This document shows, piece after piece, positions 43,857 to 55,591 of a stretch of 64,000 nucleotides of DNA. The stretch's first letter is position 1; each line of letters opens with the position of its first letter. The notes under the pieces were generated by a model. That model did not search any database. It was not told where the DNA came from and saw nothing but the letters and a program-made list of their open reading frames with translations. Both the position numbers and the translations under genes were made by a program. The stretch covers positions 2,976,001-3,040,000 of the forward strand of contig NZ_AP031573.1 in NCBI RefSeq assembly GCF_041154745.1. Reading direction: 5' to 3'. Source of the DNA: Flavobacterium sp. CFS9 (GTDB taxonomy: Bacteria; Bacteroidota; Bacteroidia; Flavobacteriales; Flavobacteriaceae).

Positions 43857-46800
43857 TTATCTAAAAGTAAGATGTAAGTATCCGCTTTTTTCAGTCATGA
43901 GCGTTCCGTTTCCGTAAGAAAGCACATAAAAATAGGTTCCGGGTGGTAATCCCACACTTTGGTTTACGGTTGCTCTCCCTTCAGAAATTCCGCGGAAATA
44001 ATTATTGTTTGCACCATAATTATTAGTTTCAAATACGATGACTCCCCAGGAATTATATATGGTTACAGTGTTATTTGGAAACCGTTCTAGACCTCTAATT
44101 TCGAAGTAATCATTTTTGCCGTCTCCATTTGGAGAAACCATATTGAAAACAATTACATCCGGATTTGTAATACCCGCCTGAGCTTTATTATTAAGCGGAT
44201 TATAATCTTGCGGAGTTGAATTTTCCAGAAAAGCAATGTTCAGATAATCCCCTTTTGTTTTTACTTTTGCTGTTAGGATCAATGTTTCTGTTTTATAGGG
44301 TAACAGTTCGGGTAAATTCCAAAGTCCGGTTGTGATATTATAATCTCCAGACGAAGTTTTAGATGAGGTATACATATATCCTGATGGAAGTATATCTTTA
44401 ATTTGAACATCTTTGAAAGTAGCCCCTCCCAGATTTTCAGCCGATATGGTAAACATGACCGGTTGACCAATGTTTGCAACGGAATTATCTATTGTTTTTC
44501 TTATCTCAATATCAGTATCCTCATTAGGTTTTAAACACGATTGGATGTCTAGAGAAAAATTAATACTTACAAGAGGATTACATTTGGTTTCATCAATATA
44601 ATTGACTTCTACAGTCCCTTTTCCGATATTGTTCCACAAAACTGTTACAAAATTGTCCGATTGTTGCCCTCCATTTACGATAGTACCTTCATTTGAAACG
44701 AGCCAATTGTAAGAGGACATTCCAGCCGCAGTAGTATAGGTTATTTTTTCTGAAATACAGGCTGACGTAAGCCAGTCAGGATTGTCATTAGGAACATCAT
44801 TTTTAACAATTACGATAACAGCCAAGCGATTTGTACTCTCACATGTACCCGTTTTTGCTGTTGCATAATAGGTTTTACCATCAATTAATAGTGTTGCGGA
44901 CGGAATTATACTTCCTCCTGTTAAGGCATCGTACCAGATAACACCGGTTCCGGAAGCTGCTAAGTCTGCTACTGTAGCCTTGGCAGCTGCACAGAATTGT
45001 TGTGTAGCAGCACCCGTTGGCGTTTTTGGGTCACTAATGCTAACGGTTATAGCTAAACGGTTTGTACTCTCACATGTACCCGCTTTTGCCGCTCCGTAAT
45101 AGGTTTTACCATCAATTAATAGTGTTGCGGACGGAATTATATTCCCTCCTGTTAAGGCATCGTACCAGATAACACCGGTTCCGGAGGCTGCTAAGTCTGC
45201 TACTGTAGCCTTGGCAGCTGGACAGAATTGTTGTGTAGCAGCACCAGTTGGTGTTTTTGGGTCACTAATGCTAACGGTTATAGCTAAACGGTTTGTACTC
45301 TCACATGTACCCGCTTTTGCCGCTCCGTAATAGGTTTTACCATCAATTAATAGTGTTGCGGACGGAATTATACTTCCTCCTGTTAAGGCATCGTAGCAGA
45401 TAACACCGGTTCCGGAGGCTGCTAAGTCTGCTACTGTAGCCTTGGCAGCTGCACAGAATTGTTGTGTAGCAGCACCGGTTGGCGTTTTTGGATCACTAAT
45501 GCTAACGATTACAGCTAAACGATTTGTGCTTTCACATGTACTTGTCTTTGCTGCTGCATAATAAGTTTTACCATCAATTAATAGTGTTGAGGACGGAATT
45601 ATATTTCCTCCTGTAAGTGCATCGTACCAGATAATACCGGTTCCGGAGGCTGCTAAGTCTGCTACTGTAGCCTTGGCAGCTGCACAGAATTGTTGTGTAG
45701 CAGCACCGGTTGGCGTTTTTGGATCACTAATGCTAACGATTACAGCTAAACGATTTGTGCTTTCACATGTACTTGTCTTTGCTGCTGCATAATAAGTTTT
45801 ACCATCAATTAATAGTGTTGAGGACGGAATTATATTTCCTCCTGTAAGTGCATCGTACCAGATAATACCGGTTCCGGAAGCTGCTAAGTCTGCTACTGTA
45901 GCCTTGGTTACTGCACAGAATTGTTGTGTAGCAGCGCCGGTTGGTGTTTTTGGATCACTAATGCTAACGGTTACAGCTAAACGATTTGTACTCTCACATG
46001 TACCCGCTTTTGCCGTTCCGTAATAAGTTTTACTATCAATTAATAATGTTGAGGACGGAATTATATTTCCTCCTGTAAGTGCATCGTACCAGATAATACC
46101 GGTTCCGGAGGTAGCCAAGTCCGCTACTGTCGCTTTTGTTGCTGTACAGAATTGTTGTGTAGCAGCACCGGTTGGTGTTTTTGGATCACTAATGCTAACG
46201 GTTACAGCTAAACGATTTGTACTCTCACATGTACTTGTCTTTGCTGCTGCATAATAGGTTTTACCATCAATTAATAGTGTTGTGGATGAAATTATATTTC
46301 CAGCCATAGCTGCATCATACCAGACAACATCAGTTTCAGAGGTAATTAAATCAGCTACTGTAGCCTTAGCAGCAGCACAGAATTGCTGGGTAGTGTTTCC
46401 TGTTGGGGTTGATAAGCCTCCAAGTGTAATGTTGACAGATTCTGTAAAATAACATCCTCCGAAAGAATTAATTTCTACTTTGTAAGTGCCAATTTGTGCA
46501 GCCGTTATATTATTGATATTTAATTCAGGGGTACTAATTTGCGTACCATCTGGCAAGGTCCATTTTATCGAATTTACCGGTCCCATTTGTATTATAGACA
46601 ATTTGATATCACTTCCGATACAAACAGCTCTGTCTCCACCATTTATTAATTGTGAAAAGGAACTTCTTAAAATCAGAGGCTGCAAGACTTCATAGCAGAC
46701 TGTTTTTGCTTTTACGATATAATTTCCTGCGGTCAATCCTTTAAATATAGGACTTGATTGTCCTGTTGTTGGGAAATCGGAATCCGTTTCTTTTTTTATA

Positions 46801-48905
46801 AAGTAAGTGACCGTTTCAGTGACCTGATCTACCTGGGTATAAAGATCCCCCGTTGTATTTCCTGAACAGACAATTCCGCCGGATTTAGATAAATTAAAAA
46901 CAGGAAAGTTAGGAGTAACATTTAAAATGCTGGTCGAAGTATTTTCCCATAATTGATTTCTGTTCAAAATGCCCGTTACAAAACTTCGCGATAAACTGAT
47001 TTCATAATTTCCGGCTACATCAGGTTCAAAAGAAAAGTTATAAATTCCGGTTTTTAAAGTAACAGCGTTACCAGGAATGTTTAAATGATTGGCACCAGGA
47101 GGTACAACAAGAAATCCCAGATCGATAAAGTCAATTCCGTAGAGTTTTCTCAAATTATTGTCCATTGCCGTTTTACCAACACCGGAAACCTGAACCGTTA
47201 CATTCTTGATATAGCGATCGCATACAGTAGATGACGGTATAGAGCTAACCTTAGTAATTTCAATTTTAGTAAAATAACTGTCTAAGACAACATCAAAGAC
47301 CTCGTCAAAACAAGCGGAATCTTGAATTCTTATTTTATAGTTCCCAGGCAGTAATTGGTTTCCCAGTCCAATGACAGAATCTTTTGTTATATCCAACGCA
47401 GAGGGACCACTTACAAGGCTTATGGTAACATCTCCTTGTAAACCTACATAACCGGGAGTAGCCATAGGAGGGTACACCGCCAGTGCACATTTACCAAAGA
47501 ATTTACCACTTGGTCCTGTGAAAAATTGTATTTTAGCTCTTATATTTTTATCTGGAGAAAAGTAATTGGCATCAATAAATACATTTTTTGAATCAGTAAG
47601 AGCTGGTTTTTCCGAAGAAGTGTTTGAAGTATTGTTTGTGAACGTGTAATTCTTTACTGCAGTTCCTGTATTATCAATTACTCTTACGGTGTACGTTTTA
47701 CCAATACCCAGTTTACAAATGGTCAGACTATTTATAGAGGTAATGGTGTAGGTGTTTTTGATACCGGTTCCATTTTCTGTTACTTCTACCGTATAAGGAA
47801 GACATCCCCCCTGATCTTTAGGAACATTATTTAATAAAACCCGTCCTGTGTCATTACAATTGGTGTTTAGAGGATCATCTTCTATACTAAATTCAAAATC
47901 AGTAAGTGGTCTTGGAATTCCAATAGAAGATGCACCATAATCCAATTCAACGGTTTTTGTCAGATTACAATAAGTAGCACTCAGGCGGACAATTCCCCAC
48001 TTAGAGCGGTCAGAAGGCAGCGGAAAAGATTTAGTGACCTGATTATACGTCAAATTATCGTAAACATTCCAGTTTGAGCCATTCTGAATTTCAAGTTTAT
48101 AGATAAAACTTTGATTTCCTGAAAAACGAGGTGTGAGATAAGGGTTAACATGAGCCTGACTAGCAGCAACAGCCAGTAAACCATTAGGAAGCGAAGCACT
48201 GCTAATACCTGAACATATATTTCCGGGAATAGTATAGACAAGGTCAACGCTATTGATGACTCCTTTGTCAAAAATAATATCATCGGCCTTCAGGGTTACA
48301 TTAGGTGCCAGATTTACTATGGTTGGAGGCGAAATAAGGGTACCGCAATTATCCATGGCTCTAACTTTGTAAGATCCGCTGGGCATATTTTTTAGCGACG
48401 AAAAGCCCCCCGACGTTTGTATACTTTGTACGATACTATTGTCGGAAGCATTAAGTAAGTTAATGGTGTATGGAGGGTTACCTTTTTCTATAACAATATT
48501 TATTGTGCCTAACGGATTAGGATCAGATGCGCAATAGGTGTAATTTTCGGCATAAAAAGATGTAATACTGGGTGAGCTTGAAGAATAGGTACTGCCTACT
48601 TTTATGGTAGTTGCAGTTTTTATAAAAGTATTGTTTTCGTAATAGCCGTAGAAATAATCTCCAGGCTCTAAATGTGTAATAAGAGAAGCCGTAGACGCAA
48701 TGATATTTGCCGGATCATAAGGAGATTTTGCAACGGCATAAACCAAAGGTGCAGAAACATTTTTAACCGTGATGGTAATAGTACCATCTGCTCTACCGTT
48801 ACCGGTACAGGACGCATCAGTTGCAACAGCAGAAATTTCTGCCTGAGCAATTGCGGCAAAAGGGAGTAAATAAAATAGCGCAACAAATAATTTTAGTGGC
48901 CTCAT
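43857..48905 (-). CDS. Giant surface protein with Ig-like repeats and gliding-motility-type C-terminal domain
   Basis: The 1682-residue product has a signal peptide, many Ig/SprB-like strand modules in the first 900 residues, seven 77-residue Ig_7-like (CHU_C-associated) repeats (44793-46409) beginning TPTG..TQQFC and holding WYDA..GG.II and YY.AAK..TCES.NRLAV, a DUF11 domain, and a type B C-terminal domain (MVSPNGDGKNDYFEIRGLERFPNNT) that directs export by the type IX system and cell-surface attachment. Probably an adhesin or gliding-related protein; the SprF-like neighbour is its likely export partner. Confidence 0.93.
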   Translation of the reverse strand: MRPLKLFVALFYLLPFAAIAQAEISAVATDASCTGNGRADGTITITVKNVSAPLVYAVAKSPYDPANIIASTASLITHLEPGDYFYGYYENNTFIKTATTIKVGSTYSSSSPSITSFYAENYTYCASDPNPLGTINIVIEKGNPPYTINLLNASDNSIVQSIQTSGGFSSLKNMPSGSYKVRAMDNCGTLISPPTIVNLAPNVTLKADDIIFDKGVINSVDLVYTIPGNICSGISSASLPNGLLAVAASQAHVNPYLTPRFSGNQSFIYKLEIQNGSNWNVYDNLTYNQVTKSFPLPSDRSKWGIVRLSATYCNLTKTVELDYGASSIGIPRPLTDFEFSIEDDPLNTNCNDTGRVLLNNVPKDQGGCLPYTVEVTENGTGIKNTYTITSINSLTICKLGIGKTYTVRVIDNTGTAVKNYTFTNNTSNTSSEKPALTDSKNVFIDANYFSPDKNIRAKIQFFTGPSGKFFGKCALAVYPPMATPGYVGLQGDVTISLVSGPSALDITKDSVIGLGNQLLPGNYKIRIQDSACFDEVFDVVLDSYFTKIEITKVSSIPSSTVCDRYIKNVTVQVSGVGKTAMDNNLRKLYGIDFIDLGFLVVPPGANHLNIPGNAVTLKTGIYNFSFEPDVAGNYEISLSRSFVTGILNRNQLWENTSTSILNVTPNFPVFNLSKSGGIVCSGNTTGDLYTQVDQVTETVTYFIKKETDSDFPTTGQSSPIFKGLTAGNYIVKAKTVCYEVLQPLILRSSFSQLINGGDRAVCIGSDIKLSIIQMGPVNSIKWTLPDGTQISTPELNINNITAAQIGTYKVEINSFGGCYFTESVNITLGGLSTPTGNTTQQFCAAAKATVADLITSETDVVWYDAAMAGNIISSTTLLIDGKTYYAAAKTSTCESTNRLAVTVSISDPKTPTGAATQQFCTATKATVADLATSGTGIIWYDALTGGNIIPSSTLLIDSKTYYGTAKAGTCESTNRLAVTVSISDPKTPTGAATQQFCAVTKATVADLAASGTGIIWYDALTGGNIIPSSTLLIDGKTYYAAAKTSTCESTNRLAVIVSISDPKTPTGAATQQFCAAAKATVADLAASGTGIIWYDALTGGNIIPSSTLLIDGKTYYAAAKTSTCESTNRLAVIVSISDPKTPTGAATQQFCAAAKATVADLAASGTGVICYDALTGGSIIPSATLLIDGKTYYGAAKAGTCESTNRLAITVSISDPKTPTGAATQQFCPAAKATVADLAASGTGVIWYDALTGGNIIPSATLLIDGKTYYGAAKAGTCESTNRLAITVSISDPKTPTGAATQQFCAAAKATVADLAASGTGVIWYDALTGGSIIPSATLLIDGKTYYATAKTGTCESTNRLAVIVIVKNDVPNDNPDWLTSACISEKITYTTAAGMSSYNWLVSNEGTIVNGGQQSDNFVTVLWNNIGKGTVEVNYIDETKCNPLVSINFSLDIQSCLKPNEDTDIEIRKTIDNSVANIGQPVMFTISAENLGGATFKDVQIKDILPSGYMYTSSKTSSGDYNITTGLWNLPELLPYKTETLILTAKVKTKGDYLNIAFLENSTPQDYNPLNNKAQAGITNPDVIVFNMVSPNGDGKNDYFEIRGLERFPNNTVTIYNSWGVIVFETNNYGANNNYFRGISEGRATVNQSVGLPPGTYFYVLSYGNGTLMTEKSGYLHLTFR
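44793..46409 (-). repeat. Seven tandem 231-bp repeats in the surface protein gene
   Basis: Each unit encodes 77 residues. Units 3 and 4 differ at only two residues in the protein, indicating recent duplication or conversion. Unit 5 (45255-45485) has Cys where all others have Trp (VICYDALTGG). Unit 1 is the most diverged. Confidence 0.95.
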
Positions 48906-53516: not shown

Positions 53517-55100
53517 ATGATAAGATTGATAGAAAAATTACTTGAATTAAATAATTATGATAAATTAAAAAATGAATTCGAAGAAATCTTTCTCTCTCAT
53601 CCAAATTACCCAAGTTTATTTGCAATAACAGATACACTAGATTTACTAGCTGTAGAAAATATCGCTGCAAATGTTCCAAAGGATCAATTGTTAGAGCTAC
53701 CGGAGTCTTTTTTAGCTCTTTATAAAGAAAAGCTGGTGTTGGTGTCTAAAAGCGAAAAAAATATAAAAATTGTTGACCAGGACGAAGTTAAACAAACACT
53801 TTTATTTGATGAATTTACTTCAGACTGGAACGGGATAATTGTTGCAATAGAACCTAATGAAAGTAAAATAATAAAAAATAAAAATTATGATCTGAATGGA
53901 CTAAAGTACATATTCCCTTTATTATTCCTGGTTTTGTTGTCTGTTTTTATGAATTACTATACCTTATTTGATTATATTTTTCTTGGAACTACAATAGCTG
54001 GATTAATAGTAAGTGTTTTTATTGCTCAGGAAAATTTTGGAATAAAAAATACAGTTGTTTCTAAGTTGTGTACAATAGGAGCAAATGTTTCCTGTGATTC
54101 GGTTATAAAATCAGAAAAAAATAATTTTATTAAAGGAATTAATTTTCCTGAGCTACCATTGATCTTCTTTAGTACAAGTTTACTTTCTTTATTACTTAAG
54201 CCTTCAATGTCAAGTGTTTTTCTCGGTTTTTTAAGCGTGCTCTCGTTTCCGGTACTGCTATTTTCATTTTGGATTCAAAAATTTCAAATTCAAAAATGGT
54301 GTATTTTATGCTTGGTAACTTCATTTTTAATAGCAATTCAAGGAGTTGTATGGTTTTTTCAAAATGAATTTACTTTAAGTTTTTCTCCTGATATTTTTGT
54401 TTTATTCTTCGTTTTGTTAGTCTCCATTTATTCTATTTGGAAATTGATAAAACCATTTATTAAAGATAGTATCGAAGCCGGGCATGGTTTAAAACAGATG
54501 AAAAAATTTAAGCGAAGCTATTCTCTTTTTAATTTTCTATCAAAAGAGGTTCCCGTATTAGATGGTTTCGAAGATTTAAAAAGTTTAAACTTTGGGAATA
54601 AAGATGCGGATTTGCAATTGTCGATAATTGTTAGCCCAAGTTGTGGACATTGTCATAAGGCATTTCAGGAATCTTTTGCTTTAGTTTCTAAATTTCCCGA
54701 GCGCGTTTTTTTGCGAGTTTTATTTAATGTAAATCCCGAAAACAACGATAACCCATACAAAGTTGTCGTTGAAAGATTGTTGACGATCAATAAAACGGAA
54801 CCGTCTAAAATCACGGAAGCAATTTCGGATTGGCACATTAAAAACTTAGATTTAAAACAGTGGACAGAAAAGTGGAATGTCAATTTGGTAACAATGATGG
54901 TAAATTATGAGATTCAGAAACAGTATGATTGGTGTTTCAAGAATGAATTTAATTATACTCCGGTTACCATTGTAAACGGCAGGTTGCATCCAAATGAGTA
55001 CGATATAAGTGAACTAAAATATTTTCTGAATGAATTTGCAGAAGAAAGTGAAAATTTAGAAAAAATAATAGGACCTCAAAATATTCTTGCGCAAGAGTAG
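53517..55100 (+). CDS. Fusion of C39-like domain, vitamin K epoxide reductase-like domain and thioredoxin-like domain
   Basis: From ATG 53517 the product is 527 residues. Residues 1-115 look like a C39 peptidase domain (SHPNYPSLFAITDTLDLLAVEN) without a catalytic Cys. Residues 130-310 carry 4-5 membrane helices and VKOR cysteines: Cys185 and Cys193 in the loop and Cys262/Cys265 in WCILC. Residues 345-527 form a thioredoxin-like domain with CGHC (Cys376/379). VKOR-thioredoxin fusions make disulfide bonds in exported proteins. The next gene, 59 bases away, encodes a four-Cys double-glycine peptide, a likely substrate. Confidence 0.92.
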   Translation: MIRLIEKLLELNNYDKLKNEFEEIFLSHPNYPSLFAITDTLDLLAVENIAANVPKDQLLELPESFLALYKEKLVLVSKSEKNIKIVDQDEVKQTLLFDEFTSDWNGIIVAIEPNESKIIKNKNYDLNGLKYIFPLLFLVLLSVFMNYYTLFDYIFLGTTIAGLIVSVFIAQENFGIKNTVVSKLCTIGANVSCDSVIKSEKNNFIKGINFPELPLIFFSTSLLSLLLKPSMSSVFLGFLSVLSFPVLLFSFWIQKFQIQKWCILCLVTSFLIAIQGVVWFFQNEFTLSFSPDIFVLFFVLLVSIYSIWKLIKPFIKDSIEAGHGLKQMKKFKRSYSLFNFLSKEVPVLDGFEDLKSLNFGNKDADLQLSIIVSPSCGHCHKAFQESFALVSKFPERVFLRVLFNVNPENNDNPYKVVVERLLTINKTEPSKITEAISDWHIKNLDLKQWTEKWNVNLVTMMVNYEIQKQYDWCFKNEFNYTPVTIVNGRLHPNEYDISELKYFLNEFAEESENLEKIIGPQNILAQE

Positions 55101-55159
55101 ACAGAAGCTTCGACTGTCTTAAAACGATTGAAGTATTAATTATATCAAAAAAAATAACC

Positions 55160-55327
55160 ATGAAAAAGTTAAAAGATTTAAAAGGAATTGTAGTTTTAGG
55201 TAAAAATGCATTGAAAGCAATCAATGGTGGTCTGGGAGAAAGATGCGTTGAAGGTGGACCTAGATGTCTTCCTCTAGGAAGTACAAAGTGCGTGAACGGA
55301 TTTTGTGCGGCAAGAACAGATATGTAA
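55160..55327 (+). CDS. Double-glycine leader peptide with four-cysteine core
   Basis: A 55-codon frame from ATG 55160 to TAA 55325-55327. The leader (residues 1-24) is rich in Lys/Leu, has hydrophobic positions at 7, 10-13 and 18-21 and ends in NGG (Gly23-Gly24), as in double-glycine peptides. The core (25-55) has Cys29, Cys36, Cys44 and Cys49, two glycine pairs and a proline. It follows the disulfide-forming fusion gene on the same strand and precedes a hairpin terminator. It is probably a secreted natural-product or bacteriocin-like precursor of the type often seen in Bacteroidota; no transporter lies nearby. Confidence 0.85.
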   Translation: MKKLKDLKGIVVLGKNALKAINGGLGERCVEGGPRCLPLGSTKCVNGFCAARTDM

Positions 55328-55388: not shown

Positions 55389-55591
55389 CCTTTAAGAATA
55401 ATAATTAGTAGCTATTTCCTGCTGTACGCTGTATCTTTTAAGGCAGAGAATTTACGTAAAGCGAGAATTTTTTCGATTGCCTAAAAAGGATGCCGCTTCC
55501 ATCAGGGCTAGAAACTCCGTTTTCAAAAACATCAAACGAAGTTCCTTATAATAGCCAATACATATTGACTTTGGTAATTATAAGCTTTGTT

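Follow-up and report, generated by a model that had tools for sequence, protein, structure and literature searches.

Class IIa bacteriocins of Gram-positive bacteria have accessory thiol-disulfide proteins, such as PedC of pediocin, and VKOR-thioredoxin fusions of the ssVKOR type carry four VKOR cysteines together with a thioredoxin-like CXXC motif. In the Bacteroidota, the closest known system to the one reported here appears, by analogy, to be that of the bacteroidetocins, class IIf bacteriocins described by Coyne et al. (2019, PMC6671954). According to the available part of that paper, deletion of the thiol oxidoreductase attenuates bacteroidetocin activity, and the authors propose that this enzyme makes the disulfides, so the principle of an oxidase acting beside double-glycine peptides in Bacteroidota is already established.

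The locus studied here lies in a stretch of 64,000 nucleotides from Flavobacterium sp. CFS9 (contig NZ_AP031573.1, positions 2,976,001 to 3,040,000), hereafter the window, whose first letter is position 1. It consists of a gene for a VKOR-containing fusion protein (the fusion) and a short gene for a Cys-rich peptide, with an RNA pseudoknot between them that was absent from the initial annotation. We consider it probable that the locus belongs to a disulfide-peptide (bacteriocin-like) pathway of Flavobacteriaceae, in which the window holds a satellite copy and the pseudoknot most likely controls the peptide in cis. The features are as follows.

53517..55100, + strand: ORF of the VKOR fusion, 527 aa
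53613-53861, + strand: residues 33-115 of the fusion, C39-like part without catalytic residues (Pfam)
53976-54347, + strand: residues 154-277, VKOR part with C185, C193, C262 and C265
54585-55028, + strand: residues 357-504, thioredoxin/DsbA-like part with CGHC (C376, C379)
55083..55098, + strand: near-palindrome ATTCTTGCGCAAGAGT, abutting the pseudoknot, inside the 3' end of the fusion CDS
55099..55133, + strand: H-type pseudoknot of 35 nt, AGACAGAAGCTTCGACTGTCTTAAAACGATTGAAG, recognized by covariation, overlapping the stop codon of the fusion
55099-55104/55114-55119 and 55108-55113/55128-55133, + strand: pseudoknot helices S1 and S2
55105-55107 and 55120-55127, + strand: pseudoknot loops L1 and L3
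55160..55327, + strand: ORF of the double-glycine peptide precursor, 55 aa, MKKLKDLKGIVVLGKNALKAINGG followed by LGERCVEGGPRCLPLGSTKCVNGFCAARTDM
55160-55231, + strand: leader of 24 aa, ending in a double glycine
55232-55324, + strand: core of 31 aa with four Cys (stop codon 55325-55327)

The ORF coordinates agree with the initial annotation both for the peptide gene, with its 55 codons, double-glycine leader and four-Cys core of 31 residues, and for the 59 bases that separate it from the fusion. The double glycine and the four Cys are all conserved in two database homologues of the peptide, which are 82% and 73% identical to it. When 150 genomes of the genus were searched with the peptide as query, there were 14 non-self matches (E up to 0.1); 10 of these lie no more than 0.7 kb from a fusion, and the other 4 do not. 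On this conservation, and because the genus matches lie mostly near fusions, we judge the reading frame to be no chance ORF. Pfam (E up to 1) and NCBIfam (E up to 10) contain no match to it. Elsewhere in the window, a 1682-aa protein (43857-48905, - strand) has, by eye, near-identical repeats of roughly 75-80 residues mid-protein.

The start codon of the fusion (53517) is supported by homologues that start with this Met, and the database fusions at 93% and 65% identity are from Flavobacterium spp. The domains named in the initial annotation were recovered by profile searches. The VKOR family (PF07884) matches residues 154-277 with an E value of 4e-13 (50.1 bits against a Pfam cut-off of 27.5), and this match, together with the four redox Cys, places the fusion in that family. 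The thioredoxin-like part is matched under the Pfam cut-off by Thioredoxin_4 (E 0.0028, residues 357-504), and by profile to PDB chain 1z6m of that fold (E 3e-8); with its CGHC motif and the invariant C376 and C379, it belongs to the DsbA/thioredoxin fold. All six redox Cys are invariant in 30/30 and 51/51 aligned fusions (L150, which has an early stop in its frame, was excluded from alignment A4). Peptidase_C39 (PF03412) matches residues 33-115 with an E value of 0.0026 and 18 bits, under the curated cut-off of 22, and its alignment begins at profile position 46 of 133. The catalytic Cys of C39 peptidases sits in the part of the profile before position 46, so the fusion lacks this region and falls outside the peptidase family. 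Its N-terminus would at most have a C39-like fold, and the annotated term ‘catalytically dead’ fits it.

Hydropathy across 51 sequences predicts six transmembrane (TM) segments in the fusion, one of which precedes the VKOR part, since the PDB match of that part starts at profile position 153. This topology would place the C39-like part, the VKOR Cys and the thioredoxin part on one side of the membrane. HlyB-type exporters have C39-like domains that bind substrate without cutting it, and the initial annotation had suggested that the C39-like part of the fusion docks the double-glycine leader while the redox parts fold the core. Such docking, with oxidation of the core on the cytoplasmic side before export, is possible, though we regard it as doubtful. 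With six predicted TM segments and all parts on one side, it works only if the shared side is the cytoplasm. The positive-inside rule points that way: the K/R counts of the seven outer and inner stretches (2.3, 0.16, 4.75, 0.10, 2.6, 0.22 and 8.0) favour a cytoplasmic redox side, although the argument is weak because no more than 4, 2 and 10 residues make up the K/R-poor stretches. The redox centre of VKOR is usually on the periplasmic side, outside the cytoplasm; in that orientation the leader would have been removed beforehand, and the C39-like part must have some other function. This part is conserved among fusions, with H28, P29 and P32 near-invariant, which is consistent with a docking function. 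The initial annotation had proposed a test of co-variation between the two genes, and no link specific to leader and C39-like part appeared. In Mantel and partial Mantel tests on 42 fusions, which compared leader or core with the C39-like, VKOR and thioredoxin parts, no part stood out, and the partial correlation of leader and C39-like part (r 0.06) was reached in 73/300 permutations.

Fusions are present in 45/150 genomes of the genus, and in 41/395 genomes of the phylum, distributed over seven families. Gene neighbourhoods were compared across 55 fetched loci around the genus matches, which together contain 60 fusions with a length of 450 aa or more; two loci that are not fusions (L112, L113) and two exporter loci of the CFS9 genome (L055, L056) stand outside these counts. 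Downstream peptides were picked by a regular expression blind to Cys. A same-strand double-glycine ORF is found within 5 kb downstream of 42/60 fusions, and within 600 nt of 40/60, with no downstream peptide at 18/60 by this expression, while a same-strand C39 ABC exporter lies downstream of 49/60. These counts are lower bounds, since some fusions are at contig ends, and some loci contain two fusions sharing one exporter. Typically, divergent tandem double-glycine peptides come first, then the fusion, then 1 to 14 Cys-rich double-glycine peptides, and last the exporter. HlyD is present in all three clusters scanned by Pfam, where the 8 flanking proteins are HlyD (3), TPR/HTH regulators (2), a methyltransferase-like protein, an acyl-CoA dehydrogenase and 23S-IVP.

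The number of core Cys is even in 88/90 distinct downstream peptides (two Cys in 7 peptides, four in 37, six in 41 and eight in 3; one and five Cys in one peptide each). Distinct here means distinct by sequence, with a peptide of a two-fusion locus counted once and with some fetched loci being the same contigs as loci named by genome; many of the peptides are related to one another and are therefore not independent observations. The divergent upstream peptides lack Cys in 90/93 cases. They occur in tandem at L054:6595-7373 (- strand) and many other loci, with sequences such as ..LSKxQQKTVRGG/D.., and in up to 8 copies beside fusions. A TPR plus HTH_18 protein is encoded upstream of the divergent peptides at L054:4833-6572 (+ strand) and L058:3734-5485 (+ strand), and is a possible cluster regulator. 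The largest array of Cys-rich peptides (L080:8648-13113, + strand) has 14 double-glycine ORFs (13 distinct, two identical) between fusion and exporter.

The ‘dedicated pair’ of the initial annotation holds insofar as the fusion and Cys-rich double-glycine peptides, mostly with even numbers of Cys, are repeatedly found together, two of every three fusions having a peptide within 600 nt. A one-to-one pairing is rejected, since as many as 14 peptide genes can follow one fusion.

The CFS9 genome (5.37 Mb, single contig) encodes a second fusion, a paralogue 55% identical to that of the window, whose locus contains a Cys-rich peptide of its own, an exporter and five divergent peptides, four of which lack Cys. 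Three full C39 matches are present in this genome, one of them about 1 kb after the paralogue and followed by HlyD. The window copy has a single peptide, no exporter within 6.9 kb downstream, and its nearest full C39 match about 0.86 Mb away; in the 16-kb locus L057, the only other same-strand ORFs of at least 120 aa kept are one of 212 aa, located 3.3 kb upstream, and one of 298 aa, located 5.9 kb downstream. The locus in the window is a satellite of the paralogous cluster with its exporter and HlyD, which would supply the transporter that the initial annotation expected elsewhere. Two further exporter loci of this genome have no fusion: four hydrophobic, nearly Cys-free double-glycine ORFs lie near the exporter at L055 (12084-14259, - strand), and a double-glycine ORF with three core Cys lies near that at L056 (9407-9574, - strand).

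In the pathway that we favour, the fusion would oxidise the Cys of secreted double-glycine peptides to disulfides, with electrons passing from the CGHC thioredoxin-like part to the VKOR cysteines and on to quinone, as the protein families suggest. The C39 ABC exporter and HlyD of the paralogous locus would cut the leader of the window peptide and export it in trans. By analogy with bacteroidetocins, the most likely role of the peptide is that of an antibacterial toxin aimed at related bacteria.

In the CFS9 genome, VKOR matches above the cut-off are limited to the two fusions (a third match is far under it, E 0.57), and DsbB has no match there. As far as the VKOR and DsbB searches indicate, the fusions seem to be this cell's dedicated route to disulfides, and they could act on other proteins as well. 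It is nevertheless improbable that the fusion is a general envelope thiol oxidase with an incidental peptide neighbourhood, as it occurs in only 45/150 genus genomes, recurs beside Cys-rich double-glycine peptides and C39 exporters, and co-occurs with the RNA element described below. The patchy occurrence and the recurrent neighbours lead us to reject a housekeeping function.

The RNA element has a consensus, derived from inspected upstream regions, of 6 pairs in S1, 3 nt in L1, 6 pairs in S2, 0 nt in L2 and 8 nt in L3, which starts with UUAAA or UAAAA. In the window it ends 26 nt before the start codon of the peptide, and a DNA search found the 59-base gap sequence again in a relative (G004), before other peptides. 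A looser initial descriptor gave 169 matches versus 46 in shuffled DNA. In a peptide-blind scan of 134 loci (2.17 Mb, both strands), all 12 pairs were present at 74 places, 72 of them with a double-glycine ORF within 60 nt, versus 18/193 control places with a complete S1 and at most 3 pairs in S2; chance is rejected on this comparison. When only unique full-pairing sequences are counted, 51/52 stand before a double-glycine ORF, the exception being at a contig end with a leader-like start.

Of the 72 listed elements, 69 were placed in a gapless alignment (A3), without the chance matches L145:3195 and L167:6005, and without L076:5663, which is one base off L070. In this alignment 97.8% of cells pair, against 27-54% in slid registers, a share that is partly built in because rows were chosen on pairing. 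Both sides change in 6/6 S2 pairs and 4/6 S1 pairs, and 0/500 shuffles were as high. A weight matrix blind to S2 gave 104 matches of at least 18 bits, 95 of them before a double-glycine ORF. The 32 S2-blind matches outside A3 provide a fairer test, yet are relatives of the training rows: S2 pairs at 5 or 6 of 6 positions in 23 of them, or in 30 if L3 may be one nucleotide longer, and 86% of cells pair in register, against 29-57% when slid. The covariation of its helices shows the predicted pseudoknot to be a structured RNA. Rfam has no family at 55099-55133 (E up to 10), and in four element-rich loci (E up to 1) gave two mir-2797 rows only, far under the cut-off and off the element. A Flavo-1 RNA (RF01705) is matched at 55411-55500 on the opposite strand, 84 bases past the peptide stop, with 42.9 bits against a cut-off of 42; part of that stretch is a dispersed repeat in related genomes.

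Distribution of the element was studied with a covariance model (R1) that has S1 as its sole pairs. In the CFS9 genome, R1 has exactly two matches at E 0.01, each between a fusion and its Cys peptide. The 150 genus genomes contain 50 matches at E 1e-4 or better, 44 of them before an ORF with a GG, GA or GS leader end; of the other six, five show a leader-like start that is cut off by the contig end, has no GG or is disrupted, while the sixth (in G061) shows none. Peptides were inspected for 64/65 genus and 36/47 phylum matches (3 of the other 11 phylum rows were already in the genus set). Weaker genus matches are mixed, with a peptide at 8/14 inspected, and a peptide was found at 33/36 phylum matches inspected. 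Two R1 matches, in G055 (E 1.2e-5) and at G004:C7:170278 (E 0.003), precede Cys-free ORFs.

Strong matches (E 1e-4) occur in 24/150 genus genomes, of which 23 carry a fusion, versus 45/150 overall (Fisher p 1e-13, with genomes counted without kinship correction), G055 being the sole exception. The occurrence of peptides far from any fusion, which the initial annotation had named as evidence against a dedicated pair, is partly observed: for 10/44 strong genus elements with a peptide, all fusions of the genome concerned are either on a different contig or more than 60 kb away (G121:C32, G121:C3, G091:C10, G098:463181, two in G149, G079:C19, G111:C37, G096:267678 and G103:5867086; the G149 and G121:C32 contigs are too short to judge linkage), yet nearly all genomes with strong matches do carry a fusion. 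Among 395 phylum genomes, R1 matches below E 5e-4 are confined to Flavobacteriaceae. Among the carriers of the element that bear a name are Flavobacterium, Tenacibaculum, Kordia, Aquimarina, Dokdonia, Winogradskyella, Psychroserpens, Flagellimonas and one Bacteroidia MAG. Because fusions are found in more genus genomes than strong elements are, and fusions extend to families in which no strong element turned up, the RNA is not essential to the pathway, and looks like a Flavobacteriaceae layer over a wider one.

In the fetched loci, 136 elements (S2-blind, at least 20 bits) lead to 121 distinct peptides, with 14 elements lacking a peptide by rule. None of the 121 peptides is without Cys and 114 have an even number (two in 10, four in 56, six in 44, eight in 3 and ten in 1, the odd counts being three in 1, five in 5 and seven in 1); when grouped into 90 core clusters, 85 are even and 5 odd. 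The distance from element end to ATG is 24-31 nt in 113/121.

The near-palindrome beside the window element also has counterparts elsewhere. A self-complementary hexamer, mostly TCGCGA, TTGCAA, TGCGCA or TGGCCA, begins 10-12 nt before the element in 69/136 cases, compared to 7% in shuffled flanks, and is present in 43/61 elements after a long gene, 9/40 after a small ORF and 17/35 others. A hairpin reading scores weakly above shuffled sequence (45% versus 20% at score 9). The hexamer is as compatible with an operator in the DNA or a piece of a promoter as with a hairpin in the RNA, and may be an operator, a promoter part or a processing hairpin. Beyond about 23 nt upstream of the element there is hardly any conservation, as judged from a search for a promoter box by positional consensus and by eye.

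With covarying S1 and S2, an A-rich L3 and a fixed place before one set of genes, the element has the hallmarks of a cis-regulatory H-type pseudoknot, and cis-regulation is the best reading of its probable function. It would control peptide expression by affecting either how stable the peptide section of the message is or how readily the ribosome gains access, possibly by binding a protein or ligand. On balance, we incline to regard this 35-nt H-type pseudoknot, which often has a palindrome in front of it, as a new class of cis-regulatory RNA. It would define a Flavobacteriaceae regulon of disulfide double-glycine peptides tied to the VKOR-fusion pathway, and what it senses is perhaps that pathway's redox state, a metabolite of it or one of its regulators. 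The arrangement of the L080 peptide genes, and seven model matches within that array (G004:C11:343585 to 345749), could also suggest a DNA-level cassette or recombination site for swapping peptide genes, with no regulatory RNA. This is very unlikely, as the compensatory changes in both helices and the H-type geometry are requirements of RNA, the strand and the spacing to the ATG are fixed, and single dispersed copies exist. Least likely of all is that the Cys form thioethers (lanthipeptide or radical-SAM type) in place of disulfides: one Cys-less divergent peptide passes TIGR04149 (‘rSAM-modified RiPP’; the sole cut-off match among 7 related peptides scanned) and a modifying enzyme may lie outside the 8 flanking proteins covered by Pfam, but Cys numbers are even in most core clusters, and these 8 proteins include no LanM, LanB or radical SAM enzyme.

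In the literature searched, which was mostly open-access and makes for a weak search, we found no VKOR/C39-like fusion with double-glycine peptide arrays and no such pseudoknot. The terms ‘vitamin K’ and ‘VKOR’ are absent from PMC10352776, and a 2010 structured-RNA survey (PMC2864571), which reports Bacteroidetes motifs including Flavo-1, shows no motif like the window pseudoknot in its available part. What appears new, within that literature, is the pseudoknot outside any Rfam family and the VKOR/C39-like fusion with its multi-peptide arrays. One enzyme gene and one RNA signature find the 121 different Cys-containing precursors in the fetched loci, making the RNA a search key for new antibacterial peptides. 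Since this short covarying RNA stands before such peptides and almost nowhere else in the 150 genus genomes, the question of what it binds or senses is testable, and the system offers a case for studying where in the cell such peptides are oxidised.

Among known systems, NCBIfam families NF047798 (‘bacteriocin-like protein’) and TIGR04149 share a leader ending in a double glycine, but the window peptide matches neither. The preQ1-I and SAM-II riboswitches are H-type pseudoknots, and the element resembles them in its fold, its 5' position and its A-rich third loop, but differs in matching no Rfam family and in preceding Cys-rich peptides. PedC of pediocin likewise is a dedicated disulfide helper adjoining a double-glycine peptide, but is an unrelated protein of Gram-positive hosts. 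The fusion shares with the ssVKOR type the four VKOR Cys and the thioredoxin-like CXXC, and differs in having a C39-like part added at the N-terminus and an additional predicted TM segment, which would place its N-terminus on the thioredoxin side.

Bacteroidetocins, as described in the available part of PMC6671954, have leaders of 15-16 aa, compared to the 24 aa of the window leader, which also ends in GG. Their region encodes a 5-TM protein and its own exporter, while the window copy has neither; its paralogue does have an exporter. Their definition asks for two or more Cys within a 35-50-aa peptide; the window peptide has four Cys, in a core of 31 aa. No pseudoknot is seen for them in that part of the paper (PMC6671954). 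Bacteroidetocins kill Bacteroidales via BamA. Both systems belong to Bacteroidota and combine a double-glycine leader with a small Cys-containing core (four Cys in bacteroidetocins A and B), and bacteroidetocins likewise involve a thiol oxidoreductase gene, required for full activity, and an exporter with a double-glycine peptidase (PMC6671954).
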